Source of the DNA: Lamellibrachia satsuma | Taxonomy: Eukaryota; Annelida; Polychaeta; Sabellida; Siboglinidae | Assembly (NCBI GenBank): GCA_033239005.1 | Contig: BSQZ01000005.1 | Location: 6,123,501 to 6,187,500, forward strand | Direction of reading: 5' to 3' | Length of the DNA: 64,000 bases | Shown here: in pieces, positions 4,791-56,350 of the stretch | Layout of the letters: each line of letters opens with the position of its first letter | Numbering within the stretch: the first letter of the stretch is position 1 | Translations under genes and position numbers: made by a program | The notes under the pieces: generated by a model | The model's database searches: none | Told to the model about the DNA's origin: nothing | Seen by the model: the letters and a program-made list of their open reading frames with translations, nothing else

Positions 4791-4978
4791 ACTTGCAATG
4801 CTTTCCACTTTTGATTGATGTGACGTAACGTTTAACGGCGTATGGGGCCTACAGTGCAATTTGGATACAGGTAAAGCAGTTGGATAGACGTTGTTAGTGT
4901 ACACTTCCTCGAGTATGTACCTCGAACTTTTACGTATACGTATATGTACAAGCTGTAGATAAACATACCAGTTAACGT

Positions 4979-5066: not shown

Positions 5067-5069
5067 CTT

Positions 5070-6112: not shown

Positions 6113-6318
6113 AGCTGGAGCGAGAAGGCGATGCCACGGTCTAGTTTTAACATCAATCGAAGGCGAAGTCGAGGGAAGAACAAGCCAGGACGAAGACAAA
6201 CCGCCTGGATTGACAACGTGAGACAGTGGACAACCGGAGGCCTGCATATTGACGAGACATCACTAATGACAAGGAAGTGCTACGAGACTGGGACTTTCCA
6301 TTGTTTAGAGGTGAACGT
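6113..6318 (+). pseudogene. LINE reverse-transcriptase C-terminal fragment
   Basis: The plus strand reads SRGKNKPGRRQTAWIDNVRQ and continues WTTGGLHI, a pattern typical of the last part of many LINE polyproteins (basic GRxxxxWIDNVxxW). The frame then shifts: DKEVLRDWDFP is readable one frame over, around 6269-6303. Only the tail is left, with no RT motifs. The same DKEVLRDW segment precedes the THAP remnant at 53650, so the two pieces travelled together. Confidence 0.55.
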
Positions 6319-6705: not shown

Positions 6706-7136
6706 ATTCGGAGAGATAATTCTTTGGAGAGTTCGGCCAGCAACTCTGGTAATTTCGACCTCAGAGCACAACGGGCTTAATGATCTCGGCCCAAACGATT
6801 GTGTACCGAGCACATGAAGCTTAATATGTGTCTTACTCTGAATAAAGAATAATATTTATTCTGTCATTTGTTAACTGAAAAGCTCGGCAGCTCTATGTAG
6901 TGGTGTTCACGGTTCGGTCCGAAAGTAAATAAGATCGAAGTCAAAGGCTACTGGCGTCGCTAAACTGCTCCGAAAGATCCTAATTCAAATATGATTCTGC
7001 GGCGTTACTTATCAGCGGTTCCTAATCGTTACATTATTCTTTTTATTCTGAAAAATTGAAATCGCCATCATTCGCCATAGTAACGCGAGTGAAACTAAAC
7101 TGAAGCATTGCAAAGAAGTCAATGAATGAATGTAAA

Positions 7137-7142
7137 CCCATA
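7137..7142. repeat. Target-site duplication, left copy (CCCATA)
   Basis: CCCATA directly precedes the AGTAGTAGG terminus of element 1. The same six bases follow its other terminus. The related uninterrupted sequence at 55259 has a single CCCATG, as expected for a target duplicated on insertion. Confidence 0.85.
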
Positions 7143-7196
7143 AGTAGTAGGTAAGTGGTTTATGATACGCAAGAGCGGTGGTTACTAAAAATAGAC

Positions 7197-7502
7197 ACTG
7201 GGAAAAACCCACATATCGCTGACGTAGCGGTTAATTTTTAATTAAATTTTTAATTTAAGTTTTAATTTAATTTTCAATTAAATTTTTAATTTAAGTTTTA
7301 ATTAAATTTTAATTAAATTTTTAATTACATTTTTTATTTAATTTTAATTTTATTTTTAATTTAATAAAAAAAAAATATTTTAGCTTTAACTATAACTTCA
7401 ATTTCAATTTTAAATTCAATGAAAACCCAGGGGAAAAACCCACCTGTCGCTAACGTGACGGTTAGTTGGGGAAAATCCACATATCGCTGACGTGGCGGTT
7501 AT
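7197..7502 (+). repeat. Element 1 subterminal modules and AT-rich tract
   Basis: Three copies of a motif of about 35 bp (GGGAAAAACCCACATATCGC, then TGACGT(A/G)GCGG) start at 7197, 7431 and 7468. An AT-only tract of TTAATTTAA-like units lies between the first and second. The right arm carries the mirror image (18540-18860), and element 2 carries the same module three times at each end. Repeated subterminal motifs are often transposase-binding sites, but no binding evidence exists here. Confidence 0.85.
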
Positions 7503-8174
7503 TGAGTACGGTATCAATGAATGAGAGAGCTAATCAATCAGGGTTCAGTACGTTATCGGTGAATGGTATAAAGAGCTGCGATTCGTCGGTTATAGTTTCA
7601 TAAAAGTTATGCGCATGAGTTTCATAAAAATCGTGGATGATTAATGAGGTAAGGAGTCTGAATGGCTCGTGTGTCCATCTGAGGGGAGGTGGGTATATGC
7701 TCGCGTTTCGGGCTACATATCATGTTAAGAATGCGGTCGTGTTGTATTCCGTAATATGACACCGCTGTGCCGCGTTCCCGAAAGAACGCATTAAGGCGAT
7801 ACTAACAGCTGACTAGTGGATTTTGGTACTCGGGAAATGCGCGTTTTAAATAACCTGGCGATATGTAGTCATATTAGCGCTGTAGATAAAGCGCTAGTTC
7901 GCCCACTGGATGTATGCAAGTCTGAACAAGTTGGACGATAAACCCGTCATTTGCATAATGCTGTGCAGTAATTTATTCGATGCCAGCAATCATGAAATTC
8001 GGGTTTCATTATTGTAATTTTTTTTGTCGTTTCTCTAAGAAGAGTAGACCATGTGACTTCCTGTCTGGATAATAAAGACAGCTGGGTATGCATCAACGAG
8101 TTGACCTGTATGCGTACAGATAACATATTTAGGGTATTGGTTATCGTATGAATCATACATAGCACGAGTAATGA

Positions 8175-8845
8175 GAAAGAGTACCGATTTGTCTAAGAAA
8201 ATACCGCTTTTATGTGTATTTTGTCACACTTAGTTACGTATTTAATGCTTTTAAGCTAAGTGATTACCACATTTATCTGCATGTTAACGCTTTTAAGCTA
8301 AGTAAATATTGCTTTTATTTGTATGTTAACACATTTTAGCTACGTAATTGCCACGCTTGGCTGTGTGTTGACGCTTTTAGCATATTAAGTATCACGTTTA
8401 ATTGTGTGCTAACGTATTTAGCTAAGTATGTACCACATTTAGCTCTATGTTAATTTTTTTTAGCAAAGAAAATATCACTTTTAGTTGTACGTTAACGCTT
8501 TTAGGCTAAGTAAATACCAAACACAGCTACATGTTAACGAGTTTAGATAGGTAATTACCGCATTTAGCTATAGGTTAAAGCTTTTAAGCTAAGAAATTAC
8601 CACATTTAGCTGTATGTTAACGCTTGTAAGCTAAGTAATTACCACATTTAGCTGTATGTTAACGCTTTTTAGCTAAGAAATTACCACATTTAGCTGTATG
8701 TTAATGCGTTTTAACTAAGTAATTACCACATTTAGCTATATGTTAACGCTTTTTAACTAAGTAATTACCCTATTTAGTTGCATGTTAACGCATTGAAACT
8801 ATTATTTACCACATTCACCTGTATGCTAAGGTACTCGGGAAATAC
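8175..8845 (+). repeat. 42-bp minisatellite in element 1, left arm
   Basis: About 16 degenerate copies of a 42-bp unit, for example CGCTTTTTAGCTAAG followed by (A/T)AATTACCACATTTAGC. The copies diverge towards the outer end. The reverse complement lies at about 17360-17960. Two 130-bp direct repeats (about 7828-7955 and 8832-8961) bracket it. Confidence 0.85.
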
Positions 8846-11149
8846 GCGTGATAAATAACAAGGTTTTCTATAGTGATATTAGTGGTGTAGTTAGAGCGTT
8901 GGTTCGCGCACTGGACGTATGCAAGTCTGAACAAGTTTAACGATAAGCCTGTCATTTGCACTTAAATCTATCCACGCTAGGTTCTGTGAAGAAAAGAACA
9001 AACTCTGCGTATGACTATAATATATTTGTTATAACTAACCAAACACTACAAGATGTACATAACAATTAATTATGAACATAATCGTCAGCATAATTAGTTA
9101 TATAAACAAACAACACTACAAATATTACTTAATATGATTATGAATTATTATTGTAATATCACGCCTTTCGGAGCGGGCTACAGAAGAAAGGTTTGCACTT
9201 AAAACACTGGGCGAGGTAAGTACAAACACATAGACCAACGAGTGGACTGTGGACTCCGGTTGCCTTAGCAACGAACGGGGTGCGGCTAGCGCTGGTATGA
9301 TCGATGTGACAACCTGCATAGTTGTAAGAACTGCTTGTGGCATGTATAGATTATGTTTGTTTTGGTACACTTGCATGGTATAACCAAGCTTAATTAATTG
9401 TGGTACACTTTAATTTGCTAACTGTATGTACGAGCGTCATAACATCATGACGTTAGCCCTGTGATAGTTCTGTCTTTTTTAAACTGTATGACATTTCTCA
9501 ACCATTTTCTAAATCATGTGTCATTTTTGCTGTACCATTTTTATTGAATGTATAAAAGATGGCCGCACCGGGTATCTGGTCATATGATACCGTTTTATGG
9601 TGGCGTATCGAAATTAAACCGTTCACCTTGTATCTTATCAACTAGAAATATAAAAGCAGTCACCCAAACAATAAATGTCGACAAGTCCGGAATTTAACCG
9701 ACATCCTGTTAAAACTGACACTTTTAAAATTTTCTTACGAAGTTATGGCATGTTTGGTTTAAAAAAATCAAGCAGTTATGTGAATATTTGTTGGAAAATA
9801 AACTCATTGGTATATTTAAAGAGACAGTATGCATGTTTCATTGGGTCGCAATGCTGTACTATAAATCAATGATAACATAGTGTTCTCTTCCAATTGACAC
9901 TTGACTGTTTAAAATTGTATTAGTACTATTTTTTTATTATCTATCAAAATATTAATTATTACGGATAAATGTAGACACGTTATAGAGTCATTATTATTTG
10001 TTTGTCTAAGCAATGCCTTGAAATAGGTTACTGCACAAGACAATGTACGCAGCATATGTTACTATTAGTATTATATTACATACCCTCTGGGTGTAAGCAT
10101 CACACTTGTCGCTGTCTTCACTACCACCTTACTGGTTTTAGGCTCATAAGGCAAACACGGTTATTTTATGTTGTCATACTGTTTTACCGAGAATAACCAT
10201 ATCGGTCAGCTGTTCAACATGTCCTAATCCAAGTTATGTGTGCCATGACTCATTGTATAGCTATCTTCGTCAGTACATCATTTTCCAATCACATACTATT
10301 CCCAAAGTACGTTGTTCTTCTTTGTCTTAGGACAGTTGTGATATATTGTTATCTATTGTTTTAGAATATGCATTTAATATAAATTATTGGAAATGTGTAA
10401 GCACTATACGGAGCTGTAGTTTGTCATCTGCACTACTTCGTTCTTTGATTTGCTGCGTCATTGAAGCAATGATGCTATGACAGCATATGTTTAACATCAC
10501 TAATCTACAATATAAACATATGAAAGGTTTTTTCTTAGATATTTTTCCTACTGCACACTTTGAGCAATCTAAAAAAAATCTCAACAACACTATTGTTGAA
10601 TTATCCTGGGTGTATGTATGCGTATTGCATATGTTGTGTATTATATTCTACTTCAAAAGTGCTACCCCTACAGCTGCCTTGACCTGGTATCGCATTTTGT
10701 TTCTGTATATTTCATACACAAACATCCGTGAACTTGGGATCCATGCATAATATAAATATAGCGGGGTATATCAGCTTCATCCATATTTTTTATTCCAATA
10801 CCCCCAACTGAAAACTGGCGAAATGCTTTAATAACATTAAAAAATGGATGGTGAAAAAACTACATACACATTAGAGTCTTCTAAATAGGCCACCCATGTG
10901 ACCAAGATAAACTGGTCTGATTACAGAGGCTGGTGAGATGTACAAATGTGTAGATCTGACAAAAACACGGGGTTTAAGGGGTGGCTGTTTTTAACGGGTG
11001 CTTTTTTGTAACTGGTTCTACTGTATCTATGGAATAAACCTTTTAGCTAGGGTTTAACTGGATGCTATAAGATACAACTACACACACCATTCTTGAAACC
11101 TAAATATTAGTTTACCACATGTTGCATTTGTCTTTTTGCATGCTCTTCG

Positions 11150-11530
11150 TTGATTGCATTAAATAGACACGTCCTTATGAGACAATGAAATATGTTTTAC
11201 TAGATTTGGAGCACCATTTGTAAAAAATAATTAAATGCAATTGCTATCTCTTTCTTTTCTGAAAGTGGTTTGTTATTCTTCGTAAAAATGTCGGGATAAA
11301 TTGGTGTGTTGAAATGTTTGTTAATTACGCACTTTAATATTTTCCAGGTATCTTTAACATTGATTTTGTGTAGTGCTGTTTTTAGTGACTCTTAATATAA
11401 CTGTTAATTTGCTTTTATAAGTTTTGTATATATGCACAGATTCAGAATATCTAGGTATAACAATTGCTTTATACAGCCTCTTTTTCTTGACACCAGCACG
11501 TTTTAAACTTTGGTGAACCAAGTTGTCTTG
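11150..11530 (-). pseudogene. LINE ORF2 fossil, left arm of element 1
   Basis: This is the mirror copy of the fossil at 14625-15000. It keeps about 20 bp (ACTTATAAAAGCAAATTAAC on the minus strand) that the right-arm copy has lost. It reads YKTYKSKLTVILR, resembling the linker between endonuclease and RT in LINE polyproteins. Frameshifts and stops are present. Confidence 0.55.
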
Positions 11531-12679
11531 TCAGTGCTACGGTACTCTAGGATGTGATCTCAGGCTAGTGGAATAGTTACTGCAGGCCTTTTTAGACACC
11601 TGGGTAACACGACTGTGAACTACTATTGTTAAGCGAGCACTTAATTCAGAGTTAATTGCGAATTTGTCAAAGAGATTAAATTATGCTATAATGTTCTTGA
11701 CTGGATGTATGAAAGAAAAAGAACAAAGAATGCGCAACGACTGCAATGACATCAGCAACTATTTTAGTATTCGTGTTTCATTGGTAGTTTCGTGAATGGA
11801 AACATTGTTGCAAGCTTTTAAAATGTGTATACGTTCCCGCCGGTAGACACACACGATGCAACAGTTGACATTTTCTTTAACTGCCAGACATTTCGCAGTA
11901 ATTTTCTTTAACTGCGTGACCTGTTATTTTCGTTTGTTGTGACATTTTTGTGTATTTTTATTTACCAGTCTTAACTAATGCGGTTTTTTCACATATATAA
12001 CGCTGTTTTCTAAGTGTGTAACACATTCACTATGTAGTAACGCGTTTAGCTATTCTTCCAATGGCATACACAGTGCAGTCACCACAGCATGTACCATCCG
12101 TTGGCCTTTTTTTTTCATTACTGGTCACCACTTCCACCATTTACCTCCGTCTGACTCTCCCTAAGAGCAACTCCATACATTGCCCCTACATTCACCTGTG
12201 TCCGTAATTTGGTTAGTTAACGACATTTGATACATTGTTACTAAGTACATGACTAGCTGGTATAGAAAAAAAAACGTTAATGCTCATTAGTTTCAAAATA
12301 TCCAGTTATGCATTTAGGGTTACTCCGACAGCGAGATAAAAACTCCGGACGAGAGTGCAGTCGGCAACAAATCGCTTTCGTAATGGGAAGTAAAAATCTA
12401 GCTGTAGGAAAAACACATGCCTTGCAGTAGACACGGTTCCCCATGACACAATAGCCGTCACTGTCTGGTGCAGGCTCCAACGTCCAACACACAGAAGTAG
12501 AAGTGTCAATCTGCCATCAAAATCACACCTGCATGTCAATTTAAACATGTGTCAACTTAGGCACCTAAACTTTAAATTATTTCTGGTGAAATGAAGAAGG
12601 AAGCACTGTTGAATAAGCACAACCAACACACTCTGTGTTGCCCCTCCCTTGTTTTTCTATTGACTAACCCGAGTTGATA

Positions 12680-13481
12680 CAAGATGCATTCCATAGAGGC
12701 AATATGTCTATGTTATTGCAACAGCCTACCTGACACTTGATGTGGTCATTGTCACCTCACTAACCATTACAGGCCAATACTAACTGCGTACGTAACGCTT
12801 TTTACCAAGTATGCAATGCATTCAGCTATATAGTAACGCGTTTAGCTATGTATGTCCGCCTGTCTGTTCGCTATCTTCACTTCCGTCCACTAACATATTC
12901 GTGTACACTCCTGTATAGTCACCCCCATGCACCAGAATATTCATTAATTACTGGTCAGTGCACCCCATCCACAATTGCCCTTTGTAGTCTCTTCAAACAT
13001 TTTATTTACTGCTAATCTCTTCTTTCATTCATCCCCTCCCACTACCCCCTACATTGACCGCCTTTCGTCTACCCCTACAAGAATATCCATCCATTACTGG
13101 CCACCTGCATCTCCATCCACATCCGTCCGTTGACTCTTCATCCATCAATGTTCTCCACCCCCACTCTTCACATCCATCTGACTGCACGAAGTGGCGAAAA
13201 AACGAATTGGCAAAACAACCATTTTCTTGAACTGTGCAACATTTTTTGTGTCGTTTTTGTAACTACGTATGCGTTTTTGTCACATATGTAGCACTGTTTG
13301 CCAAGGATGTAACACATTCACTATGCAACGCGTTTAGCTGTTCTTCCCGTGGCATACACGGTCACCTTAATTAGGTCAAATCTCAACTTAATTAAGGCAA
13401 ATGATTGTATTGTATATAACACTTGGTATTACTCATTATCTACTCTGTCTACATACTTGATTTTATTACTCTACATACTGA
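12680..13481. other. Element 1 central spacer
   Basis: Unpaired DNA between the arms. Around 13190-13370 it contains a degenerate direct copy of left-arm sequence at about 11870-12075 (both end ...CACATTCACTATG...ACGCGTTTAGCT...TTCTTCC, then a GGCATACAC block). It also has another short copy near 12785-12850. The middle is pyrimidine-rich, with repeated CCATCC/CCCCT words. No gene is apparent. Confidence 0.7.
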
Positions 13482-16400
13482 TATCAACTCGGGTTAGTCA
13501 ATAGAAAAACAAGGGAGGGGCAACACAGAGTGTGTTGGTTGTGCTTATTCAACAGTGCTTCCTTCTTCATTTCACCAGAAATAATTTAAAGTTGAGATGC
13601 CTAAGTTGACACATGTTTAAATTGACATGCAGGTGTGATTTTGATGGCAGATTGACACTTCTACTTCTGTGTGTTGGACGTTGGAGCCTGCACCAGACAG
13701 TGACAGCTATTGCGTCATGGGGAACCGTGTCTACTGCAAGGCATGTGTTTTTCCTACAGCTAGATTTTTACTTCCCATTACGAAAGCGATTTGTTGCCGA
13801 CTGCACTCTCGTCCGGAGTTTTTATCTCGCTGTCGGAGTAACCCTAAATGCATAACTGGATATTTTGAAACTAATGAGCATTAACGTTTTTTTCTATACC
13901 AGCTATCATGTACTTAGTAACAATGTATCAAATGTCGTTAACTAACCAAATTACGAACACAGGTGAATGTAGGGGCAATGTATGGAGTTGCTCTTAGGGA
14001 GAGTCAGACGGAGGTAAATGGCGGAAGTGGTGACCAGTAATGGAAAAAAAGGCCAACGGATGGTACATGCTGTGGTGATTGCGCTGTGTATGCCATTGGA
14101 AGAATAGCTAAACGCGTTACTACATAGTGAATGTGTTACACACTTAGAAAACAGCGTTATATATGTGAAAAAACCGCATTAGTTAAGACTGGTAAATAAA
14201 AATACACAAAAATGTCACAACAAACGAAAATAACAGGTCACGCAGTTAAAGAAAATTACTGCGAAATGTCTGGCAGTTAAAGAAAATGTCAACTGTCGCA
14301 TCGTGTGTGTCTACTGGCGGGAACGTATACACATTTTAAAAGCTTGCAACAATGTTTCCATTCACGAAACTACCAATGAAACACGAATACTAAAATAGTT
14401 GCTGATGTCATTGCAGTCGTTGCGCATTCTTTGTTCTTTTTCTTTCATACACCCAGTCAAGAAAATTATAACATAATTTAATCTTTTTGACAAATTCGCA
14501 ATTAACTCTGAATTAAGTGCTCGCTTAACAATAGTAGTTCACAGTCGTGTTAACCAGGTGTCTAAAAAGGCCTGCAGTAACTATTCCACTATCCTGAGAT
14601 CACATCCTAGAGTACCGTAGCACTGACAAGACTTGGTTCACCAAAGTTTAAAACGTGCTGGTGTCAAGAAAAAGAGGCTGTATAAAGCAATTGTTATACC
14701 TAGATATTCTGAATCTGTGCATATATACAAAACAGTTATATTAAGAGTCACTAAAAACAGCACTACAGAAAATCAATGTTAAAGACACCTGGAAAATATT
14801 AAAGTGCGTAATTAACAAACATTTCAAAACACCAATTTATCCCGACATTTTTACGAAGAATAACAAACCACTTTCAGAAAAGAAAGAGATAGCAATTGCA
14901 TTTAATTATTTTTTAACAAATGGTGTTCCAAATCTAGTAAAACATATTTCATTGTCTCATAAGGACGTGTCTATTTAATGCAATCAACGAAGAGCATGCA
15001 AAAAGACAAATGCAACATGTGGTAAACTAATATTTAGGTTCCAAGAATGGTGTGTGTAGTTGTATCTTATAGCATCCAGTTAAACCCTAGCTAAAAGGTT
15101 TATTCCATAGATACAGTAGAACCAGTTACAAAAAAGCACCCGTTAAAAACAGCCACCCCTTAAACCCCGTGTTTTTGTCAGATCTACACATTTGTACATC
15201 TCACCAGCCTCTGTAATCAGACCAGTTTATCTTGGTCACATGGGTTGCCTATTTAGAAGACTCTAATGTGTATGTAGTTTTTTCACCATCCATTTTTGTA
15301 ATGTTATTAAAGCATTTCGCCAGTTTTCAGTTAGGGGTATTGGAATAAAAATAAAAAATATATCATGGTTACATATATCATAATACAATTAAAATAAATA
15401 TGATATCAACTGGATGAAGCTGATATACCCTGCTATATTTATATTATGCATGGATCCCAAGTTCACGGATGTTTGTGTATGAAATATACAGAAACAAAAT
15501 GCGATACCAGGTCAAGGCAGCTGTAGGGGTAGCACTTTTGAAGTAGAATATAATACACAACATATGCAATACGCATACATACACCCAGGATAACAACAAT
15601 AGTGTTGTTGAGATTTTTTTTAGATTGGTCAAAGTGTGCAGTAGGAAAAATATCTAAGGAAAAACCTTTCATATGTTTATATTGTAGATTAGTGATGTTA
15701 AACATATGCTGTCATAGCATCATTGCTTCAATGACGCAGCAACTCAAAGAACGAAGTAGTGCAGATGACAAACTACAGCTCCGTATAGTGCTTACACATT
15801 TCCAATAATTTATATTAAATGCATATTCTAAAACAATAGATAACAATATATCACAACTGTCCTAAGACAAAGAAGAACAACGTACTTTGGGAATAGTATG
15901 TGATTGGAAAATGATGTACTGACAAAGATAGCTATACAATGAGTCATGGCACACATAACTTGGATTAGGACATGTTGAACAGCTGACCGATATGGTTATT
16001 CTCGGTAAAAGAGTATGACAACATAAAATAACCGTGTTTGCCTTATGAGCCTAAAACCAGCAAGGTGGTAGGGAAGACAGCGACAAGTGTGATGCATACA
16101 CCCAGAAGGTATGTAATATAATACTAATAGTAACATATGCTGCGTACATTGTCTTGTGCAGTAACCTATTTCAAGGCATTGCTTAGACAAACAAATAATA
16201 ATGACTCTATAATGTGTCTACATATATCCGTAATAATTAATATTTTGATAGATAATAAAAAAAATAGTACTAAAACAATTTTAAACAGTCAAGTGTCAAT
16301 TGGAAAAGTACACTATGTTATCATTGATTTATAGTACAGCATTGCGACCCAATGAAACATGCATACTGTCTCTTTAAATATACCAATGAGTTTATTTTCC

Positions 16401-18915
16401 AACAAATATTCACATAACTGCTTGATTTTTTTAAACCAAACATGCCATAACTTTGTAAGAAAATTTAAAATGTGTCAGTTTTAACAGGATGTCGGTTAAA
16501 TTCCGGACTTGTCGACATTTATTGTTTGGGTGACTGCTTTTATATTTCTAGTTGATAAGATACAAGGTGAACGGTTTAATTTCGATACGCCACCATAAAA
16601 CGGTATCATATGACCAGATACCCGGTGCGGCCATCTTTTAAACATTCAATAAAAATGGTACAGCAAAAATGACACATGATTTAGAAAATGGTTGAGAAAT
16701 GTCATACAGTTTAAAAAAAGACAGAACTATCACAGGGCTAACGTCATGATGTTATGACGCTCGTACATACAGTTAGCAAATTAAAGTGTACCACAATTAA
16801 TTAAGCTTGGTTATACCATGCAAGTGTACCAAAACAAACATAAACTATACATGCCACATGCAGTTCTTACAACTATGCAGGTTGTCACATCGACCATACC
16901 AGCGCTAGCCGCACCCCGTTCGTTGCTAAGGCAACCGGAGTCCACAGTCCACTCGTTGGTCTATGTGTTTGTACTTACCTCGCCCAGTGTTTTAAGTGCA
17001 AACCTTTCTTCTGTAGCCCGCTCCGAAAGGCGTGGTATTACAATAATAATTCATAATCATATTAAGTAATACTTGTAGTGTTGTTTGTTTATATAACTAA
17101 TTATGCTGACGATTATGTTCATAATTAATTGTTATGTACATCTTATAGTGTTTGGTTAGTTATAACAAATATATTATAGTCATACGCAGAGTTTGTTCTT
17201 TTCTTCACAGAACCTAGCGTGGATAGATTTAAGTGCAAATGACCGGCTTATCGTTAAACTTGTTCAGACTTGCATACGTCCAGTGCGCGAACCAAAGCTC
17301 TAACTACACCACTAATATCACTACAGAAAACCGTGTTATTTATCACGCGTATTTCCCGAGTACCTTAGCATACAGGTGAATGTGGTAAATAATAGTTTCA
17401 ATGCGTTAACATGCAACTAAATAGGGTAATTACTTAGTTAAAAAGCGTTAACATACAGCTAAATGTGGTAATTACTTAGCTAAAAAGCGTTAACATACAG
17501 CTAAATGTGGTAATTACTTAGCTTACAAGCGTTAACATACAGCTAAATGTGGTAATTTCTTAGCTTAAAAGCGTTAACCTATAGCTAAATGCGGTAATTA
17601 CTTAACTAAACTCGTTAACATGTAGCTGTGTTTGGTACTTACTTAGCCTAAAAGCGTTAACGTACAACTAAAAGTGATATTTTCTTTGCTAAAAAAGTTA
17701 ACATAGAGCTAAATGTGGTACATACTTAGCTAAATACGTTAGCACACAATTAAACGTGATACTTAATACGCTAAAAGCGTCAACACACAGCCAAGCGTGG
17801 CATTTACGTAGCTAAAATGTGTTAACATACAAATAAAAGCAATATTTACTTAGCTTAATAGCGTTAACATGCAGATAAACGTGGTAATCACTTAGCTTAA
17901 AAGCATTAAATACGTAACTAAGTGTGACAAAATACATATAAAAGCGGTATTTTCTTAGACAAATCGGTACTCTTTCTCATTACTCGTGCTATGTATGATT
18001 CATACGATAACCAATACCCTAAATATGTTATCTGTACGCATACAGGTCAACTCGTTGATGCATACCCAGCTGTCTTTATTATCCAGACAGGAAGTCACAT
18101 GGTCTACTCTTCTTAGAGAAACGACAAAAAAATTACAATAATGAAACCCGAATTTCATGATTGCTGGCATCGAATAAATTACTGCACAGCATTATGCAAA
18201 TGACGGGTTTATTATTATTTAAAACGCGCATTTCCCGAGTACCAAAATCCACTAGTCAGCTGTTAGTATCGCCTTAATGCGTTCTTTCGGGAACGCGGCA
18301 CAGCGGTGTCATATTACGGAATACAACACGACCGCATTCTTAACATGATGTGTAGCCCGAAACGCGAGCATATACCCACCTCCCCCCAGATGGACACACG
18401 AGCCATTCAGACTCCTTACCTCATTAATCATCCACGATTTTTATGAAACTATAACCGACGAATCGCAGCTCTTTATACCATTCACCGATAACGTACTGAA
18501 CCCTGATTGATTAGCTCTCTCATTCATTGATACCGTACTCAATAACCGCCACGTCAGCGATATGTGGATTTTCCCCAACTAACCGTCACGTTAGCGACAT
18601 ATGGGTTTTTCCCCTGGGTTTTCATTGAATTTAAAAGTGAAATTGAAGTTAAAGTTAAAGCTAAAATAATTTTTTTTTTATTAAATTAAAAATAAAATTA
18701 AAATTAAATAAAAAATTTAATTAAAAATTAAATTAAAAATTACATTAAAAATTAAATTAAAACTGAAATTAAAAATTTAATTACAAATTAAATTAAAACT
18801 TAAATTAAAAATTTAATTAAAAATTAACCGCTACGTCAGCGATATGTGGGTTTTTCCCAGTGTCTATTTTTAGTAACCACCGCTCTTGCGTATCATAAAC
18901 CTCTTACCTACTACT
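13482..18915 (-). repeat. Element 1, right arm
   Basis: Reverse complement of the left arm, slightly shorter. It lacks the outer 130-bp unit found at 7828-7955 and keeps the inner one at about 17225-17350. The same subterminal modules, AT-rich tract and 42-bp array are present in mirror order. Substitutions are scattered through all codon positions of every frame, which is not the pattern of selected coding sequence. Confidence 0.88.
14625..15000 (+). pseudogene. LINE ORF2 fossil, right arm of element 1
   Basis: The plus strand gives KRAGVKKKRLYK, then (after frameshifts) DTWKILKCVINK and EKKEIAIAFNYFFTN. This order is characteristic of the region just upstream of the RT domain in LINE ORF2 proteins (basic linker, TWK...I, IA..FN.FF). 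No endonuclease or RT catalytic motif remains. Because the mirror copy exists, the fossil was in the ancestral arm before the inverted duplication formed. Confidence 0.6.
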
Positions 18916-18921
18916 CCCATA
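18916..18921. repeat. Target-site duplication, right copy (CCCATA)
   Basis: Directly follows the CCTACTACT terminus of element 1 and matches the left copy. It continues into TCATCATTGACGTCAC, the counterpart of TCATCAGTGATGTCAC at 55265. Confidence 0.85.
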
Positions 18922-19370
18922 TCATCATTGACGTCACAAAGCCACGTGGTCGCCCATCTCATTAATTTCGAATGTTACGCGCGCTTTGTGAGTTAGACGC
19001 ATTAAACATCTAATTTTATTTGGAATGTAGTACATACAATATTATCTTTTGTGTATACAATGTAAAAGCTAGTGCCTTGTTATTATTCCCTTTAAACGTT
19101 TTGTCTGACAGCTAACAAAAATGCCGTTTCATCTCATACATTTGTCTTGTCGTTGATATTATTTTAGCTGTGCACACTTAGTCGTAATATGTCGGTTTAG
19201 TTGGATTGAGTGCGCGTTTAATATTCAAACATCTAAATTAGCACACATTTATTCTATAGTATGTCTCATTTCACAGGGTAACACTCTAAGCCCGCATCAA
19301 GCATAAACAATATAAAATGTCTTAGTTGCTGCCATTTCAAAAAGGGTAACGTGGACATAAACACATAATT
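18922..19370. mobile_element. Downstream half of the THAP-type element interrupted by element 1
   Basis: Sequence from 18922 (TCATCATTGACGTCAC...CATCTCATTAATTTCGAA) matches 55265-55340. GGAATGTAGTACATAC...CTAGTGCCTTGTT matches about 56258-56330. With 6905-7136 (matching about 55020-55258) this rebuilds one older repeat split by the insertion. The copy at 55-56 kb carries an extra stretch of about 0.9 kb between the two matches. Confidence 0.7.
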
Positions 19371-21605: not shown

Positions 21606-21742
21606 AGCCGGGAAAGGTTAATTAAAGACCATATGGTGGACCTCCTTTTAAATTAAAATTAAAATTAAAAATTTAAATTTAAATTAACCGATTTAAATTT
21701 AAATTTCAAATTACAATTTTTATTTAAAAATAAATGAAAACC

Positions 21743-21853
21743 CAGGGGAAAAACCCACATATCGCTGACGTGGCAATTAATTGGGGAAACACACATATCG
21801 CTAACGTGACGGTTAGTTTGGGAAAATCCACATATTGCTGACGTGGCGGTTAT
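21743..21853 (+). repeat. Element 2 subterminal modules
   Basis: Three tandem copies of GGGGAAAAACCCACATATCGC with TGACGTGGC or a close variant, starting at about 21745, 21783 and 21820. The mirror set is at about 30598-30705. In element 1 the first copy is separated from the other two by the AT-rich tract; here the AT-rich tract lies outside all three. Confidence 0.85.
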
Positions 21854-21950
21854 TGAGTACGGTATCAATGAATGAGGGAGCTAATCAATCAGGGTTCAGT
21901 ACGATATCGGTGAATGGTATATAGAGCTGTGATTCGTCGGTTATAGATTT

Positions 21951-23150
21951 GAAAATAATGACACAATATTGTCCACAAACGTTAGACAGAGGACTCTAAA
22001 GTCTCTTGCCATACCGACGTATAGCTGACGTAAGCTATAAACGTGTCAGGACATGCAGCTGACGTAAGCCGCACACAGAACAATACCAAATAAGGACATG
22101 CAGCTGACGTAACCCGCACCAGACGCGTCACGGAAAGTGCATCATCAGCATAGTTTCGTTATATGTCAATATTTTAAAATAATGCGCTCTTAAATTTTAT
22201 CAATAAGTATTACAGTTTACCCATCATTCCTACAATTTACCCATAATTCCCCTATTAAATAAGAGTACAAGGAAATTTTATTAAATATTTGAAAATAATG
22301 ACACAATATTGTCCACAAACGTTAGACAGAGGACTCTAAAGTATGTTGCCATACCGACGTACAGCTGACGTAAGATGCAGCTGACGTAAGCCGCACTCAG
22401 AACAATACCAAATAAGGACATGCAGCTTACGTAAGCCGCACCAGACGCGTCGCGGAAAGTGCACTATCAGCATATTGTCGTTATATGTCAATATTTGAAA
22501 ATAATGCGCTCTTACACTTTATCCATAAGTCCTACAGTTTACCTATAATTCCTACAATTTACCCATAATTCCTCTATTGAATAAGAGTACAAGCAAATGT
22601 TATTAAATATTTGAAAATAATGACACAATATTGTCCACAAACGTTAGACAGAGGACTCTAAAGTCTCCTGACATACCGACGTACAGCTGACGTAAGATGC
22701 AGCTGACGTAAGCCGCACACAGAACAATACCAAATAAGGACATGCAGCTGACGTAAGCCGCATCAGACGCGTCGCGGAAAGCGCGCCATCAGCATAGTTT
22801 CGTTATATGTCAATATTTTTAAATAATGCGCTCTTACACTTTACCCATAACTCCTACAGTTTACCCATAATTCCTACAATTTACCCATAAGTCCTACACT
22901 TTACCCATACCTCCTACAGTTTACCCATAATTCCTACAATTTACCCATAAGTCCTACAATTTACCCATACCTCCTACAGTTTACCCATTACTCCTACAGT
23001 TTACATATAACTCTTACAGTTTACCTATAACTCCTAAATTTTACCCATAACTCCTACAGTTTATCCGTAACTCCTACAGATTAGCCGTAACTCCTACAGT
23101 GACGCGACACCCTCCTATCGAATAAGAGTACGAGCAAATTGTATTAAATA
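21951..23150 (+). repeat. Tandem modules rich in GCTGACGTAAG, with 20-bp sub-array
   Basis: Three large units begin at 21951, 22291 and 22613 with GAAAATAATGACACAATATT. Each has two or three GCTGACGTAAG sites, then a TATATGTCAATATTT block, then repeats of a 20-bp word (ACAGTTTACCCATAACTCCT). The 20-bp word is expanded to about 13 copies at 22850-23100. TGACGTAA resembles a CREB/ATF site; functional meaning is not shown. Confidence 0.85.
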
Positions 23151-23609
23151 TTTAAAAATAATGACATAGGATAGCATAGTAAAGCATTATAATATAATTA
23201 AATATGGGTACATTATTTTTAAATATTGACATATAACGAAAATATAAAAAAGTAGAATAGATCAAGGACAAAAATATCACTGTTCGTTCTACGGTGGCGT
23301 TAAAGTCTGGCAGCAGGCATCGCTTGAGACGCACACGCAAACGCACACGCACACACACACGATGCTTGCTTATATAACACTGTTGTTTCAATAACGCACA
23401 CATATGTAGTGTAGTGTGTTTGTTCCTTCACCTAGCTATAAAAAGAACTGGACTTTAGTTTCATACGGATCGTGTTACTCACAGACCCCTTATATTCTGA
23501 TTGACCAGGCAAGGCAAACTATTACCAACATTAAACCTGTCTGGACTTCCGCGCTGTGTGCAGTGACACTCTGCTTTAATAAAATATGCATGATTATATG
23601 ATACTGTCC

Positions 23610-25795
23610 TCTGTTTCTCCTACCTCCAACCACATCCTGGCTCCTGATACATTGCGTCCATCATACAGTCCTCTGTCTCTCCTACCTCCAGCCACATCCT
23701 GGCTCTTTACACATTGCCTCCACCATTACCTACAGCCACATCCTGGCGTCTGATACATTGCCTCCGCCATACAGTTCTCTGTCTCTCCTACCTCCAGCCA
23801 CATCCCTGCTCCGTACACACTGCCTCCGCCATACATTCCTCTGTATCTACTACTTCCAACCACATTCTGGCGCATTACACATTGCCTCCACCATAGAGTC
23901 CTCTGTCTCTCCAACCTCCAGCCACATCCTGGCTCCCGATACATTGCGTCCACCATACTATCATCTTTCTCTCCTACATAGAGCCACATCATTGCTCCTG
24001 ATACATTGCCCCCGCCATTCAGTCTTCTGTCTCTCCTACATCTAGCCACATCCTGGCTACTTACACACTGCCTCCATCATACAGTCCACTGTCTTTCCTA
24101 CCTCCAGCCACATCCCTGCTCCTTACACACTGCCTCCACCATACAGTCACCCGTCTCTACTACCTCCAACCAAATCCTGGCTCTTTACACATTGCCTGCA
24201 CCATATATTCTTCTGTCTCTCCTACCTCCAGCCACATCCTGGCTCGTGATACATTGTGTCCACCTTACAATCCTCTGTCTCTCCTACCTCCAGCCACATC
24301 CTGGCTACTTACACACTGCCTCCACCATACAGTCCTATGTCTTTCCTACCTCTAGCCACATCCCTGCTCCTTACACACTGCCTCCGCCATACAGTCCTCT
24401 GTCTCTCCTACCTCCAGCCACATCCTGGCTCCTGATACATTGCGTCCATCATACAGTCCTCTGTCTTTCCTACCTCCAGCCACACCCTTGCTCCTTACAC
24501 ATTACCTCCACCATACTGTCCTCTGCTACTCCTACCTCCAGCCACATCCTGGCTCCTGATACATTGCGTCCACCAAACTGTCCTCTGTCTTCTCTACCTC
24601 CAGCCACATCCTGACTCCTTACACACTGCCTCCGCCACACAGTCCTCTTTCTCTCCTACACCCAGCCACATCACTGCTCCGTACACACACACTGCCTCCG
24701 CCATACATTCCTCTGTCTCTACTACCTCCAGCCACATTCTGGCGCATTACACATTGCCTCCACCATAGAGTACTCTGTCTCTCCTACCTCCAGCCACATG
24801 CTGGCTCTCGATACATTGCGTCCACCATACTATCCTCTGTCTTTTCTACCTCCAGCCACATCCTGACTCCTTACACACTGCCTCCGCCACACAGTCCTCT
24901 TTCTCTCCTACACCCAGCCACATCCTGGCTCCTGATACATTGCGTCCATCATACAGTCCTCTGTCTTTCCCACCTCCAACCACATCCTGGCTCCTGATAC
25001 ATTGCGTCCATCATACAGGCCTCTGTCTTTCTTACCTCCAGCCACACCCTTGCTCCTTACACATTGCCTCCACCATACTGTCCTCTGTTGCTCCTACCTC
25101 CAGCCACAACCTGGCCCCTGATACATGGCGTCCATCATACAGTCTTCTGTCTCTCCTATCTCCAACCAAATCCTGGCTCCTTACACACTGCCTGCACCAT
25201 ACAGTCCTCTGTCTCTCCTACCTCCAGCCACATCCTGGCTCGTGATACATTGCGTCCGCCATACAGTCCTCCATCTCTCCTACCTCCAGCCACATCCTGG
25301 CTACTTACACACTGCCTCCACCATACAGTCCACTGTCTTTCCTAACTCCAGTCACATCCTGGCTCTTTACACACTGCCTCCGCCATACAGTCCTCTGTCT
25401 CTCCTACCTCCAGCCACATCACCCCTCCTGATACATTGCGTCTTTCATACAGTCCTCTGTCTCTCCTACCTACAGCCACATCACCCCTCCTGATGCATTG
25501 TCCCCGCCATACACACTGCCTCCACCATACAGTCCACTGTCTTTCCTAACTCCAGCCACATCCTGGCTCCTTACACACTGCCTCCACCACACAGTCCTCT
25601 GTCTCCCCTACCTCCAGCCACATCCTGGTTCTTTAAGCACTGCCTCCGCCGCATTGTGGCTCTTGATACATTGCGTCCACCATAATGTCATCTGTCTCTC
25701 CTACCTCCAACCATATCCTGACTCCTGATACGTTGCGTCCACCATACTATACTGTCCTCTGTCTCTCCTACCTCCAGCCACATCCTGGTTCCTGT
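23610..25795 (+). repeat. 62-bp minisatellite, about 35 copies (left arm)
   Basis: The unit is CTCCTACCTCCAGCCACATC, then CTGGCTCCTGATACATTGCG and TCCACCATACAGTCCTCTGT. Two main versions differ in the middle (GATACATTGCGTCC versus TACACACTGCCTCC). Because 62 is not a multiple of three and few copies contain stops, open frames of up to about 200 codons arise in all frames; they rotate through the same peptides and are not evidence of a gene. Confidence 0.92.
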
Positions 25796-26135
25796 ACATA
25801 AATGTATACTGAGATGATGAGAACCGGCATGACAGCTTCGAGACAGTGTCATAAAATAAATAAATGTACAGTCTGTATCTCCAGCACACAGCTGTAAGAG
25901 ATAGTCACTACAACTCCAGTACACAATTAGAATACACAGTAACTGCTGGAATACATGGCCAGTGCACTCTCAATACAAATCTAGAATATAGAAACACACT
26001 CTGTACACAGCTAAAATACAAAATATTCACAGTATCTCCAGTACATAGTTATAATGCATTGTCACTACAACTCCAGTACACGATTAGAATACACAGTTAC
26101 TGCTCAACCAGGACACAGTTCGAATACATGGTCGC

Positions 26136-26744
26136 TGCTGCATCTCCAGCACACAGCTGTAAGATATAGTCATTACAACTCTCAACTGTCTCACCATCTC
26201 ATACACTGTCACCCCTCTACATATGGACAAGCTCCATAAAGTAGTAGTGAGTCGAGTGTAGCCATTACCTTCTGGTTCCCACACCTCACCACCCCAACCA
26301 TAGAGTAATGATACAGTCACCAGGGGGCTCAGGGGCGCGCGCGGGGGTGGTAATGCACCTTTTTCCGCGTAATACACCGTTTTCCTGTAATCGCAATATA
26401 TGCTGAAATGCTGAGAAAAAGCAAGGCAGGCTGGAGACAGTGTCATAAAATAAATAAATGTATGCTGAGATGGTGAGAAACAGCAAAGCAGGATGGAGAC
26501 ATTATCATAAAATAAGTAAATGTATGCTGAGATGGTGTCATTTTGTTAGTTTGTTCGTCAGAAGTTGTATGACGTTGTGTGAAGTTGTGCGAAGTTGTGC
26601 GAAGTTGTGTGAAGTTGTGCGAAGTTGTGTGAAGTTGTGTAATGTTGTGCAAAGTTGTGTGAAGTTGTGCGGAATTGTGTGATTTTCTAGCTATGTACTG
26701 AGGTTGTAGTGGCTATGTATTCCAGTTATGTACTGAGGGTGCAG
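26136..26744. other. Element 2 centre
   Basis: Unpaired segment. It includes a GC-rich patch (GGGGCGCGCGCGGGGG around 26330), three tandem copies of a unit with ATGCTGAGATGGTGAGAAAC and GACAGTGTCATAAAATAAAT (26395-26540), related to 25800-25860, and an array of about 10-bp GAAGTTGTGT units (26575-26690). Confidence 0.7.
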
Positions 26745-27354
26745 CGACCATGTATTCGAGCTGTGTCCTGGGTGAGCAGTAACTGTATATTCTAATCGTG
26801 TACTGGAGTTGCAGTGACAATGCATTATAGCTATGTACTGGAGATACTGTAAATATTTTGTATTTTAGCTGTGTACAGAGTGTGTAGTGACTATATATTC
26901 TAGATGTGTACTGAGGGTGCATTGGCCATGTATTCTAGCAGTAACTGTGTACTCTAATTTTGTACTGGAGTAGCAATGACTATATCTTACAGTTGTGTGC
27001 TGGAGATACAGCAGCGACCATGTATTCGAGCTGTGTCCTGGTTGAGCAGTAACTGTGTATTCTAATCGTGTACTGGAGTTGTAGTGACAATGCATTATAG
27101 CTATGTACTGGAGATACTGTGAATATTTTGTATTTTAGCTGTGTACAGAGTGTGTAGTGATTATATATTCTAGATGTGTACTGAGTGTGCACTGGCCATG
27201 TATTCCAGCAGTAACTGTGTATTTAATTGTGTACTGGAGTTGTAGTGACTATATCTTACAGCTGTGTACTGGAGATACAGACTGTACATTTATTTATTTT
27301 ATGACACTGTCTCGAAGCTGTCTTGCCGTTTCTCATCGTCTCAGTATACATTTA

Positions 27355-29080
27355 TGTACAGGAGCCAGGATGTGGCTAGGTAGAAGAGACAGAGGACAGT
27401 ATAGTATGGTGGACGCAACGTATCAGGAGTCAGGATGTGGTTGGAGGTAGGAGAGACAGATGACATTATGGTGGACGCAATGTATCAGGAGGGGTGATGT
27501 GGCTGTAGGTAGGAGAGACAGAGGACTGTATGAAGGACGCAATGTATCAGGAGCCAGGATGTGGCTGGAGGTAGGAGACACAGAGGACTGTGTGGCGGAG
27601 GCAGTGTGTAAGGAGTCAGGATGTGGCTGGAGGTAGGAAAGACAGAGGATAGTATGGTGGACGCAATGTATCGGGAGCCAGGATGTGGCTGGAGGTAGGA
27701 GAAACAGAGGACGCTATGGTGGAGGCAATGTGTAATGCGCCAGATTGTGGCTGGAGGTAGTAGAGACAGAGGAATGTATGGCGGAGGCAGTGTGTAAGTA
27801 GCCAGGATGTGGCTAGAGGTAGGAGAGGCAGAGGACAGTATGGTGGAGGCAATGTATCACGAGCCAGGATGTGGCTGGAGGTAGGAGAGACAGAGGACTG
27901 TATGGCGGAGGCAGTGTGTAAGTAGCCAGGATGTGGCTGGAGGTAGGAGCAACAGAGGACAGTGTGGTGGAGGTAATGTGTAAGGAGCAAGGGTGTGGCT
28001 GGAGGTAGGAAAGACAGAGGATTGTATGACGGACGCAATGTATCAGGAGCCAGGATGTGGCTGGAGGTAGACGAGACAGAGGACTGTATGAAGGACGCAA
28101 TGTATCAGGAGCCAGGATGTGGCTGGAGGTAGGAGAGACAGTGGACTTTATGGTGGAGGCAGTGTGTGAGTAGCCAGGATGTGGCTGGAGGTAGGAGAGA
28201 CAGAGGATTGTATGGTGGAGGCAGTGTGTAAGGAGCAGGGATGTGGCTGGAGGTAGGAAAGACAGTGGACTGTATGGTGGAGGCAGTGTGTAAGTAGCCA
28301 GGATGTGGCTAGAGGTAGGAGAGGCAGAGGACAGTATGGTGGAGGCAATGTATCACGAGCCAGGATGTGGCTGGAGGTAGGAGAGACAGAGGACTGTATG
28401 GTGCAAGCAATGTCTGAAGAGCCAGGATTTAGTTGGAGGTAGTAGAGACGGAAGACTGTATGGTGGAGGCAGTGTGTAAGGAGCAGGGATGTGGCTGGAA
28501 GTAGGAAAGACAGTTGACTGTATGGTGGAGGCAGTGTGTAAGTAGCCAGGATGTAGCTAGAGGTAGGAGAGACAGAGGACAGTATGGTGGAGGCAGTGTG
28601 TAAGGAGCCAAGATGTGGTTGGAGGTAGGAGAGACAGAAGACTGAATGGCGGGGGCAATGTATCAGGAGCAATGATGTGGCTCTATGTAGGAGAGACAGA
28701 GGATAGTATGGTGGACGCAATGTATCGGAAGCCAGGATGTGGCTGGAGCTAGGAGAGACAGAGGACTATATGGTGGAGGCAATGTGTAATGCGCCAGAAT
28801 GTGGTTGGAAGTAGTAGATACAGAGGAATGTATGGCAGAGGCAGTGTGTACGGAGCAGGGATGTGGTTGGAGGTAGGAGAGACAGAGGACTGTATGGCGG
28901 AGGTAGTATGTAAGTAGCCAGGATGTGGCTGGCGGTAGGAGAGACGGAGGACTGTATGGCGGAGGCAGTATGTAAGTAGCCAGGATGTGGCTGGAGGTAG
29001 GAGAGACAGAGAACTGTATGGCGGAGGCAATGTATCAGGCGCCAGGATGTGGCTGTAGGTAATGGTGGAGGCAATGTGTA
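27355..29080 (-). repeat. 62-bp minisatellite, about 28 copies (right arm)
   Basis: Mirror of the array at 23610-25795, reading GGAGGTAGGAGAGACAGAGG on the plus strand. The order of unit variants is only partly the same as on the left, so the arms have expanded and contracted independently since pairing. Confidence 0.9.
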
Positions 29081-29295
29081 AAGAGTGTCACTGCACACAT
29101 CGAGGAAGTCCAGACAGGTTTAATGTTGGTAATAGTTTGCCTCGCCTGGTCAATCAGAATATAAGGGGTCTGTGAGTAACACGATCCGTATGAAACTAAA
29201 GTCCAGTTCTTTTTATAGCTAGGTGAAGGAACAAACACACTACACTACATATGTGTGCTTTATTGAAACAACAGTGTTATATAAGCAAGCATCAT

Positions 29296-29334
<39 letters not shown>

Positions 29335-29390
29335 GCGTGTGCGTGTGCGTGTGCGTGTGCGTGTGCGTGTGCGTTTGCGTGTGCGTCTCA
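29296..29390. repeat. GT/GCGT microsatellite
   Basis: (GT)n passing into (GTGTGC)n and GTTTGCGTGTGCGTC. The left arm holds only a short version at the mirror position, marking expansion on one arm after the palindrome formed. Confidence 0.92.
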
Positions 29391-29594
29391 AGCGATGCCT
29401 GCTGCCGGACTTTAACGCCACCGTAGAACGAACAGTGACATTTTTGTTCCTTGACCTATTCTACTATTTTATATTTTAGTTATATGTCAATATTTTTAAA
29501 TAATGTACCCATATTTAATTATATTACAATGCTTTACTATGCTATCCTATGTCATTATTTTTAAATATTTAATACAATTTACTTGTACTCTTAT

Positions 29595-30500
29595 TTGATA
29601 GGAGGGTGTCGCGTCATGGTTATACTGTAGGAGTTACGGCTAAACTGTAGGAGTTATATGTAAACTGTAGGAGTTATGGGTAAACTTTAGGAGTTATGGG
29701 TAAACTTTAGGAGTTATGGGTAAACTGTAAGAGTTATATGTAAACTGTAGGAGTAATGGGTAAACTGTAGGAGGTATGGGTAAATTGTAGGAATTATGGG
29801 TAAACTGTAGGAGGTATGGGTAAAGTGTAAGAGCGCATTATTTAAAAATATTGACATATAACGAAACTATGCTGATGGTGCACTTTCCGCGACGAGTCTG
29901 GTGCGGCTTACGTCAGCGGCATGTCCTTATTTGGTATTGTTCTGTGTGCGGCTTACGTCAGCTGCATCTTACGTCAGCTATGCGTCGGTATGGCAAGAGA
30001 CTTTAGAGTCCTCTGCCTAACGTTTGTGGACAATATTGTGTCATTTTTTTAAAATATTTAATAACATTTGCTTTTACTCTTATTCAATAGGGGAATTATG
30101 GGTAAATTATAGGAATTATAGATAAACTGTAGGAGTTATGGGTAAAGTGTAAGAGCGCATTATTTTCAAATATTGACATATAACGACAATATGCTGATAG
30201 TGCACTTTCCGCGATTATAGGAATTATAGATAAACTGTAGGAGTTATGGGTAAAGTGTAAGAGCGCATTATTTTCAAATATTGACATATAACGACAATAT
30301 GCTGATAGTGCACTTTCCGCGACGCGTCTGGTGCGGCTTACGTCAGCTGCATGCCCTTATTTGGTATTGTTCTGTGTGCGGCTTACGTCAGCTGCATGTC
30401 CTGAAACGTTTATAGCTTACGTCAGCTGTACGTTGGAATGGCAAGAGACTTTAGGGTCCTCTGTCTAACGTTTGTGGACACTATTGTGTCATTATTTTCA
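29595..30500 (-). repeat. Right-arm copy of the GCTGACGTAAG/20-bp repeat modules
   Basis: Mirror of 21951-23100: GGAGTTATGGGTAAACTGTA units at 29620-29840, then CTTACGTCAGC sites at about 29908-29975 and 30335-30425. It differs from the left arm in number of 20-bp units and in an internal duplication at 30115-30290. Confidence 0.85.
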
Positions 30501-30859
30501 AATCTATAACCGACGAATCACAGCTCTATATACCATTCACCGATAACGTACTGAACCCTGATTGATTAGCTCTCTCATTCGTTGATACCGTACTCAGTAA
30601 CCGCCACGTCAGCAATATGTGGATTTTCCCCAACTATCCGTCACGTTAGCGATATGTGGGTTTTCCCAATTAATCGCCACGTCAGCGATATGTGGGTTTT
30701 TTCCATGGGTTTTCAGTGATTTTTAAATTAAAATTGTAATTTGAAATTAAAATTAAAAAAAATAAAAATAAAAATAAAAATAAAAATTAAAATTAAAATC
30801 GACCCACAATTGGGGGTATGAAAACGACACTATAACTACTCATGCTTAATATGTTTTTT

Positions 30860-54979: not shown

Positions 54980-56350
54980 TGTGTATGCGTATGGTAGATA
55001 TACAAGAAGTTTGGCGGCTATGTAGGGTTGTTTTAATGGTTAGGTCAGAACATAAATTAGATCAAAGTCAAACTATACTGGCATCGCTAAACTGCTCCAG
55101 AATTCAAAGATGATTCTGTGGTATCACTTGCCGCTAGTGATTCGAAATTGTGAAATTTTACTTTACATTCTGGAAAATTGACATCGCCACCACTTGCCAT
55201 AGTAACGCAACTGAAACCATACTGAAACATTGCATAGAAATCACCGACCGAATGTAGACCCATGTCATCAGTGATGTCACCAAATCATGTGATCACTTAT
55301 CTCATTAACTTCGAATTTTATACGCGCTTTGCTAGTTAGTAAATGACCTTAAACAGCTTCCAAGGAAGGTGTTCGCGTCTACGACAGCCATTCTTGGCCC
55401 AACTGATTTTTTTTACTGCTTGAATGTTTGAAGCATCTTAAGAATATCCATGCAAATATGTCTAATATCAACAAATATCACACTCAAATCAAATGCTTGA
55501 CATTAAAAGTAAAGCAATACAACAAATAAAAATAGAAGATGTAGCACTCAGCAATTCAATTGATTTTGAAAGTAATACATTGAATTTGAAACATTACTTC
55601 TTTTATAAAACAGTAATCATCCAGATTCAGTATTGCCTATTGGACAAAAAACAATATGAATTTACTAGACTGAGCACAGCTTAATCGTTCGTGGTTTGCC
55701 TGCCGTTTGAGTTTTCTTTCAGCAACCGGGAAACTGCTGCCGATAGCAGGGCCTACACGCCGATTATGTCTGATTCGGAGCCCGAATCAGACTCAATTTC
55801 GATCGCGCTTGGCCACTGCAAAGTGCGCACTTATTCTGACATAGACTGTAGCCAAAATTGGCTTCTTATGTCATACCACAATTACAATTATAAAGCATGC
55901 CAGCGGTAGGCGACAATACAGTAGCGTCATAGTTATTAACGGCAGGCACATCACTATAATGGATCTCCAACAAAGTAACAAAGGATGCTGACTTGGACTG
56001 TTCAGGGATAATCGCAGTAACGCTGTTTTTATTCACATCCGTCGAATCACGTCACTGTGTGTTAAAAGTCACCAAGACAATTCAAACAATTTTGTTACGA
56101 AAAAAATCTCATGTTGTAAAAAGAAAAACCCGCCTTTTATGTTTATTTTACCCGTCGTTGTAAGACATTTGCCCATCTTCAAGACGGGCTGACGGGTCTC
56201 CCCGCTAAGGGCCTGATTTTACTTATAAATAAATTTGTATGTTACGTTTTTCACCTGGCATGTAGTACATACTATATTAAACTTTGTGTTCACACCAAAA
56301 AAGCATTTTAGCTAATGCCTTGTTTTTAATTCCTTTAAACATGGATCTGT
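54980..56350 (+). mobile_element. Uninterrupted relative of element 1's target, with a 0.9-kb extra block
   Basis: About 55020-55340 matches 6905-7142 joined to 18922-18985 without element 1: ATGTAGACCCATGTCATCAG crosses the site. After about 0.9 kb unique to this copy (about 55345-56235), the match resumes at CATGTAGTACATACTAT (56258-56330). The extra block holds a short frame MSDSEPESDSISI and an imperfect GACGGG palindrome; nothing recognisable. Confidence 0.65.

Follow-up and report, generated by a model that had tools for sequence, protein, structure and literature searches.

A palindromic element without detected genes in Lamellibrachia satsuma as a putative non-autonomous fold-back derivative of Polinton/Maverick transposons

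Introduction

The window analysed here, a stretch of 64,000 nucleotides from the genome of the annelid Lamellibrachia satsuma (GenBank assembly GCA_033239005.1, contig BSQZ01000005.1, positions 6,123,501 to 6,187,500 of the forward strand), contains a large segment made almost wholly of two inverted arms. This segment, called E1, raises two questions: what kind of mobile element it is, and how the two arms of one copy came to be so alike. The original prediction, made from the sequence alone, described a real insertion without a gene, belonging to a family of giant hairpin transposons and matching no standard class. In this paper, the limits of E1, its relatives in the same genome, the origin of its arms and the likeness between them are considered in turn. 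All coordinates without another label refer to the window.

Structure and limits of E1

As seen in Table 1, E1 is flanked by two exact copies of CCCATA. Its termini, AGTAGTAGG and CCTACTACT, are exact and each abuts one of these copies. The arms, 5537 bp on the left and 5434 bp on the right, jointly form 93% of the element, in agreement with the size of about 5.5 kb first reported for them. In the arm alignment of 5611 columns, 5279 are identical, 81 are substituted and 251 contain a gap; the differences are scattered along the whole arm length and include 18 indels, six of which measure 13-82 bp.

Table 1. Coordinates in the window of E1, its parts, its target and the neighbouring element E2
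Feature	Position	Strand	Remark
Whole palindromic element E1	7143..18915	.	11,773 bp
Left arm of E1	7143..12679	+	98.5% vs reverse complement of 13482-18915, aligned bases
Right arm of E1	13482..18915	-	alignment with left arm
Spacer of E1, single-copy	12680..13481	+	802 bp
Left target site duplication of E1, CCCATA	7137..7142	+	exact; relative with one CCCATG
Right target site duplication of E1, CCCATA	18916..18921	+	exact
Element-free relative of E1 target	55018..55339	+	lone CCCATG at 55259-55264
34-bp subterminal motif, three copies, E1 left end	7200..7501	+	starts 7200, 7431, 7468
34-bp subterminal motif, three copies, E1 right end	18543..18858	-	starts 18543, 18580, 18825
42-bp tandem array, E1 left arm	8238..8829	+	tandem repeat
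42-bp tandem array, E1 right arm	17365..17913	-	same array as in left arm
Polinton-derived end, E1 left arm	7143..7711	+	terminus, AT-rich tract, subterminal domain 7431-7711
Polinton-derived end, E1 right arm	18359..18915	-	palindrome of 7143-7711; inner limit approximate
Second, related palindromic element E2	21646..30840	.	about 9.2 kb; 62-bp arrays in each arm

The uninterrupted relative of the target lies within the same window. To the left of E1, 6893-7141 matches 55018-55263 at 75.7% identity, and to the right, 18916-18996 matches 55259-55339 at 79%. The wider repeat at 53637-55339 is akin to 6256-7141 joined to 18916-18996, and this copy contains about 0.8 kb more (54194-55017).

The view that E1 lacks a gene was also upheld. 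A six-frame Pfam scan of one arm and the spacer, with stop codons read as X, returned no family above the cut-off and a single sub-threshold match (E 0.092). When four single ORFs of E1 were scanned, only sub-threshold matches were obtained, the best at E 0.0021. Rfam and tRNA scans of the whole window gave no match.

A mobile family in the same genome

Relatives of E1 were sought in the genome from which the window comes (735 Mb, 279 contigs). A probe from the terminus gave at least 65 matches, and 40 of 309 candidates were scored. A probe from the interior (9161-9900) gave 970 first-look candidates, 40 of which were scored; these comprised nine convergent pairs (18 matches) and 22 partnerless matches. 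E1, C12 and C29 account for three of the nine pairs, and the ends of the other six were then examined.

Identical 6-bp duplications were found in all 17 two-ended copies tested, namely E1, ten terminus-probe loci with two inverted ends and six interior-probe loci. The ten terminus-probe duplications are all distinct from one another (CTCGTA, GACACT, GCGGTC, TACGAG, GCCGCG, TGTCTT, CATGCA, TACCAT, GATGTC and GACATA), and the six interior-probe pairs showed GCCGTG, AATGTC, ATCGCA, AGCGGG and TGTGTG, with AATGTC in C226. The end motif (AGT)2/(ACT)2 is present at both ends of E1 and at 35 of 36 ends in the terminus set, which were chosen for likeness to the terminus (C15L is short of one AGT). In the second set, chosen through the interior probe, it was seen at 10 of 11 ends, the left end of C14b reading AATAGT. 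No exact match to the E1 terminus was returned from viral_contigs, and none to the subterminal motif from either viral_contigs or genome_contigs.

Nine further copies of 10-14 kb with inverted arms were recovered. Four of these were fully read: C29 (11.1 kb, arms 4.74 kb), C12 (11.9 kb, arms 5.48 kb), C72 (12.9 kb, arms 6.45 kb) and C82 (10.0 kb, arms 4.93 kb). In the other five, C6, C14b, C177, C3 and C88 (12.5-14.1 kb), the arm probe lies inverted at both sides inside true ends, so that their inverted arms are shown by probe. Further forms include C22, of 1.25 kb; C87, which has a LINE-type insertion and arms of about 1.9 kb; and C19, in which one arm was read and proved to be a full C72-like arm reaching its centre. 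Together with the 17 duplications, the nine copies bear out the proposed family of giant hairpin transposons, and the duplications, termini and uninterrupted target relative confirm that E1 is a true insertion. Copies ending at other points or lacking a 6-bp duplication, the outcome that would have told against that proposal, were sought among the tested copies and none was found.

Several loci were recorded besides these. The middle of C87 carries reverse transcriptase and endonuclease ORFs within a palindromic copy. C226 (19711-46961) is a two-ended locus of about 27 kb with AGTAGT ends and other subterminal sequence; within it, the E1 arm probe matches in inverted orientation on either side. 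In C33, two ends stand 1.9 kb apart; since both share an identical outer flank, this pair is probably a local duplication.

Palindromes are common assembly faults, and a folded read or collapsed haplotypes must therefore be weighed as a source of E1. Against this stand the exact target duplication, the 81 substitutions and 18 indels between the arms, and the presence of several copies, differently flanked, on further contigs that are mostly several megabases long. Because the arms differ and the other copies have other flanks, an assembly fold at E1 is unlikely, and an artefact of either kind is scarcely credible.

Assignment to Polinton/Maverick transposons

Four two-ended copies with the E1-type terminus have short terminal repeats of 142-578 bp: C25 (14.8 kb), C14 (16.0 kb), C56 (19.4 kb) and C15 (22.5 kb). 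Their ORFs are colinear on one side, with matches mostly at 85-97% protein identity. C25 encodes an rve integrase core (4.8e-13) together with a chromodomain, and its integrase matches structures of foamy-virus (PFV) integrase. A chromodomain was likewise found in C14 and in C15, where rve fragments fell below the cut-off. A fragment of C15 resembles DNA_pol_B_2 (E 1.7e-5; 24.3 bits, just below the 25.8 cut-off) and has 727 homologues, with PF03175 in many of the 120 listed. Nothing above the cut-off was found by Pfam scan in three ORFs of C56, and a comparison of a 453-aa Polinton ORF with solved structures was negative.

In vertebrate Mavericks, the commonest ends are 5'-(AGT)2//(ACT)2-3' and duplications are of 6 bp, and intact copies have terminal inverted repeats of 46-1447 bp (PMC8097293). 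Judged from their sequences, C25, C14, C56 and C15 are Polintons, so E1, placed by its termini, its 6-bp duplication and these coding relatives, is best classed as a non-autonomous Polinton/Maverick derivative. It is taken for a derivative rather than an autonomous Polinton because no coding match was detected in E1, yet coding copies with the same terminus exist; protein-primed PolB and retroviral-type integrase, neither detected in E1 itself, were both seen in those copies, PolB as a fragment. The same features overturn the statement that E1 fits no standard class. E1 shares with Polintons/Mavericks the AGTAGT terminus, the 6-bp duplication and an integrase-side end of about 570 bp, but differs in having no gene found and in that the family arms, at about 5-6.5 kb, form nearly the whole element. 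The shared ends and duplication length suggest that E1 was mobilised by Polinton enzymes, and it looks like a parasite of these virus-like transposons.

Other classes were compared. IS3EU/GingerRoot elements also make 6-bp duplications, with termini TA..TA or TG..CA (PMC10045372), and E1, with termini AG..CT, was ruled out as one of them. A Foldback/MULE-type element of the classical kind, or a Galileo (P-type) element, would account for long gene-less arms with internal tandem repeats, since Tetris and Galileo likewise include gene-less copies with long inverted repeats of this kind (PMC4079207, PMC3573991). Tetris, which its authors group with Mutator, makes 8-10-bp duplications (PMC4079207), and Galileo, of the P superfamily, makes 7-bp ones, its longest terminal inverted repeats belonging to transposase-less copies (PMC3573991). 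By duplication length, E1 is excluded from both the Foldback/Mutator-like and the Galileo groups, which in the accounts cited also differ in transposase class and in inverted repeats of only up to about 1.7 kb. In addition, the AGTAGT ends, the 6 bp duplicated in 17 of 17 copies and the relatives that encode an integrase with rve and chromodomain as well as part of a B-type polymerase speak against such an identity, and no MULE or P transposase was seen within these termini. This alternative is very improbable.

The same Polinton end in both arms

Gene order indicates that C14R, C25R, C15R and C56L are one equivalent end, the integrase-side end. The outer part of the E1 arm resembles this end: 7431-7711 matches C14R 209-491 at 93% identity, and 7231-7708 matches the integrase-side end C56L at 81%. 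Under the threshold used for arm and Polinton ends (E<=1e-8, 70 bp or more), arms of E1, C72, C82 and C87 match C14R 209-491 at 92-94%, past the terminal repeat. C56L was matched to 887-901, by C72 and C82 at 91-92% and by E1 and C87 at 81%, the stretch in these two being longer and partly AT-rich. C25R matches E1 partly (116-242), and the match of C15R ends by 219; among the four integrase-side ends, the subterminal domain is thus full in C14R and C56L, partial in C25R and absent from C15R. At the same threshold, no matches were found past C14L 285, C56R 178, C25L 300 or C15L 275. Of the ten ends of C29, C12, C87, C72 and C82, nine have the integrase-side domain within the first 450 bp, C87R being the one without it. 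At the level of sequence similarity, these alignments establish that both arms of E1 bear the same integrase-side Polinton end.

E1 and C87 lose their similarity to C14R near 7708-7711, and C72, C82, C34, C19, C11 and C21 lose it at the equivalent place; in C26 it ends earlier. Because of this common stopping place, the arm can be divided into a Polinton end of about 570 bp and a remainder of some 5 kb, which is non-coding DNA of another kind. No Polinton containing the inner 5 kb was found in this analysis. One arm of the palindrome family, that of C34, bears an inner non-coding stretch from the other, non-integrase-side Polinton end, an outcome unforeseen by a simple model, and the arms are for this reason mosaic. 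The stretch, at 4707-5333 (inward, reverse strand), is 86-90% identical to C25L and C15L.

The centre of the palindrome

C72 and C82 are palindromic across the centre to within about 100 nt. The centre common to C72, C82 and C19 folds as a stem that opens into two hairpins; for the unpaired centre of this set, folded alone without the palindromic stem, the z-scores were -4.7, -3.0 and -4.8.

A homologue of the E1 spacer is present in both arms of C72 and in both arms of C82. The E1-type spacer is single in E1, C12 and C29, inverted with the same limits in C12 and beginning at position 80 in C29, where the left inner arm is further deleted. E1 can thus be described as a palindrome of the C72/C82 type minus the centre and one inner flank. 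Because C72 and C82 each carry its spacer twice, once per arm, a one-sided loss of the centre is indicated, and E1, C12 and C29 would derive from a palindrome that suffered this loss and was then mobile as such.

The palindrome might instead have come from two opposite Polinton-type insertions, or from a chromosomal inverted duplication, that later spread as a unit. Nested or inverted neighbours do exist (C21); however, the compared copies carry the same Polinton end in both arms, C72 and C82 are palindromic nearly to the centre, and one hairpin centre is common to three copies. Such an origin is quite unlikely.

The common centre, with a stem into the arms and two adjacent hairpins, is much like a parvovirus hairpin end. 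It is conceivable, if unlikely, that a Polinton-type virus has these palindromes as satellite genomes, which replicate by hairpin turn-around with the centre as a maintained structure, a protein-primed ancestor having turned to hairpin replication and a large hairpin family persisting in an animal genome.

Likeness of the arms within copies

Divergence between the two arms of a copy is 1.53% in E1, 1.24% in C29, 1.99% in C12, 0.93% in C72, 0.26% in C82 and 2.23% in C87, in each of the six below every between-copy value. In the trio E1, C29 and C12, 70 of 78 informative sites support pairing of the arms within a copy. Eight conflict, three of these uniting two same-side arms (C12 turned to match E1), and no site among the 78 unites all arms of one side. 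With 10 arms and 2197 gap-free columns, C87 left out, a topology with arms grouped by side was rejected (delta lnL 96, AU p 2.8e-60). In the 10-arm tree, support for the C72 arm pair was 69%. When C87 was included (12 arms, 1210 columns), C82 was nested within C72 at 87%.

Without any change to the identity of the element, this likeness could stem from chromosomal gene conversion after insertion rather than from the replication cycle. Palindromic arms are good substrates for gene conversion, and the arm differences are clustered in four of the six copies, C29, C12, C72 and C82 (p<=0.005), which leaves room for post-insertion conversion or for alignment error in the tandem arrays. On the other hand, the differences are evenly spread in E1 (p 0.475) and C87 (p 0.314), and the single-arm branches of E1, C29 and C12 are longer than the branches uniting the arms of a copy. 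Conversion as the source of the likeness is possible but somewhat doubtful.

A fold-back origin

Taken as a whole, the best explanation is that E1 is a non-autonomous fold-back ("snapback") Polinton/Maverick derivative, and this explanation, the proposed fold-back origin included, is probably correct. A fragment of a Polinton-type genome would have kept one end and become fused to non-coding DNA of about 5 kb. During replication, this one-ended fragment may have turned back on itself at a hairpin. Once the folded strand was copied, the resulting duplex would have the same end on both sides, and with it two origins for protein-primed replication as well as two integrase sites. If polymerase, terminal protein and integrase were given in trans, the product could multiply and integrate with 6-bp duplications. 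While single-stranded, its arms would pair and one would template the other, so that new copies, as proposed here, begin with identical arms.

Comparable products are known from viruses. Snapback (defective interfering) genomes of AAV are self-complementary, keep one end only and are symmetric or asymmetric (PMC8235507); C72 and C82 look symmetric, and E1 asymmetric. In contrast to the AAV genomes described there, the E1 family is integrated with target duplications, has a putative PolB-type parent and is inherited as a family. E1 is not a member of the AAV snapback group, the likeness being in the proposed fold-back origin.

Fold-back forms also arise in other transposon classes, and gene-less derivatives of this kind are already known for cut-and-paste transposons such as Tetris and Galileo (PMC4079207, PMC3573991). 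Among the matches listed from the open-access literature, none is a gene-less fold-back derivative of a Polinton. If the arms of such a set record one round of homogenisation for each copy, genome sequence alone would suffice to test the Polinton replication route, with panhandle or hairpin intermediates. The family also shows that palindromes of 10-14 kb persist in an animal genome; these are a possible source of long double-stranded RNA, which might affect how the parent element is silenced.

A second element and other features of the window

A further palindrome, E2, adjoins E1 at a distance of 2.7 kb and was absent from the original prediction. It shares the integrase-side domain (21746-21950 against C14R 173-377, 89%), and its right terminus, ACTACT, lies at 30835-30840, with a subterminal variant common to C88 and C3. 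The left terminus and the target duplication of E2 were sought and not found. From these sequences, E2 is classed as a palindromic Polinton derivative. It lies between two pieces facing each other inverted (21520-21570 and 31235-31284, 96%), which are LINE-like by eye.

E2 contains 19 CRE-like TGACGT sites, where simulated sequence has a mean of 3.6; they lie at 22026-22749 and 29910-30679. One arm and the spacer of E1 contain 3 against 2.7 simulated, and enrichment was rejected as a family feature since E1 is unenriched.

Elsewhere in the window, an inverted repeat at 45833-49594 has arms of about 500 bp at 92% and ends GTTTACTTAACTGG, with no target duplication seen. A 201-bp tandem repeat of 7.7 copies occupies 949-2488, and a LINE-like reverse transcriptase, split by a single stop codon, lies at 40285-41466. 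Finally, the ORF at 60087-60590 matches p190RhoGAP-type proteins.
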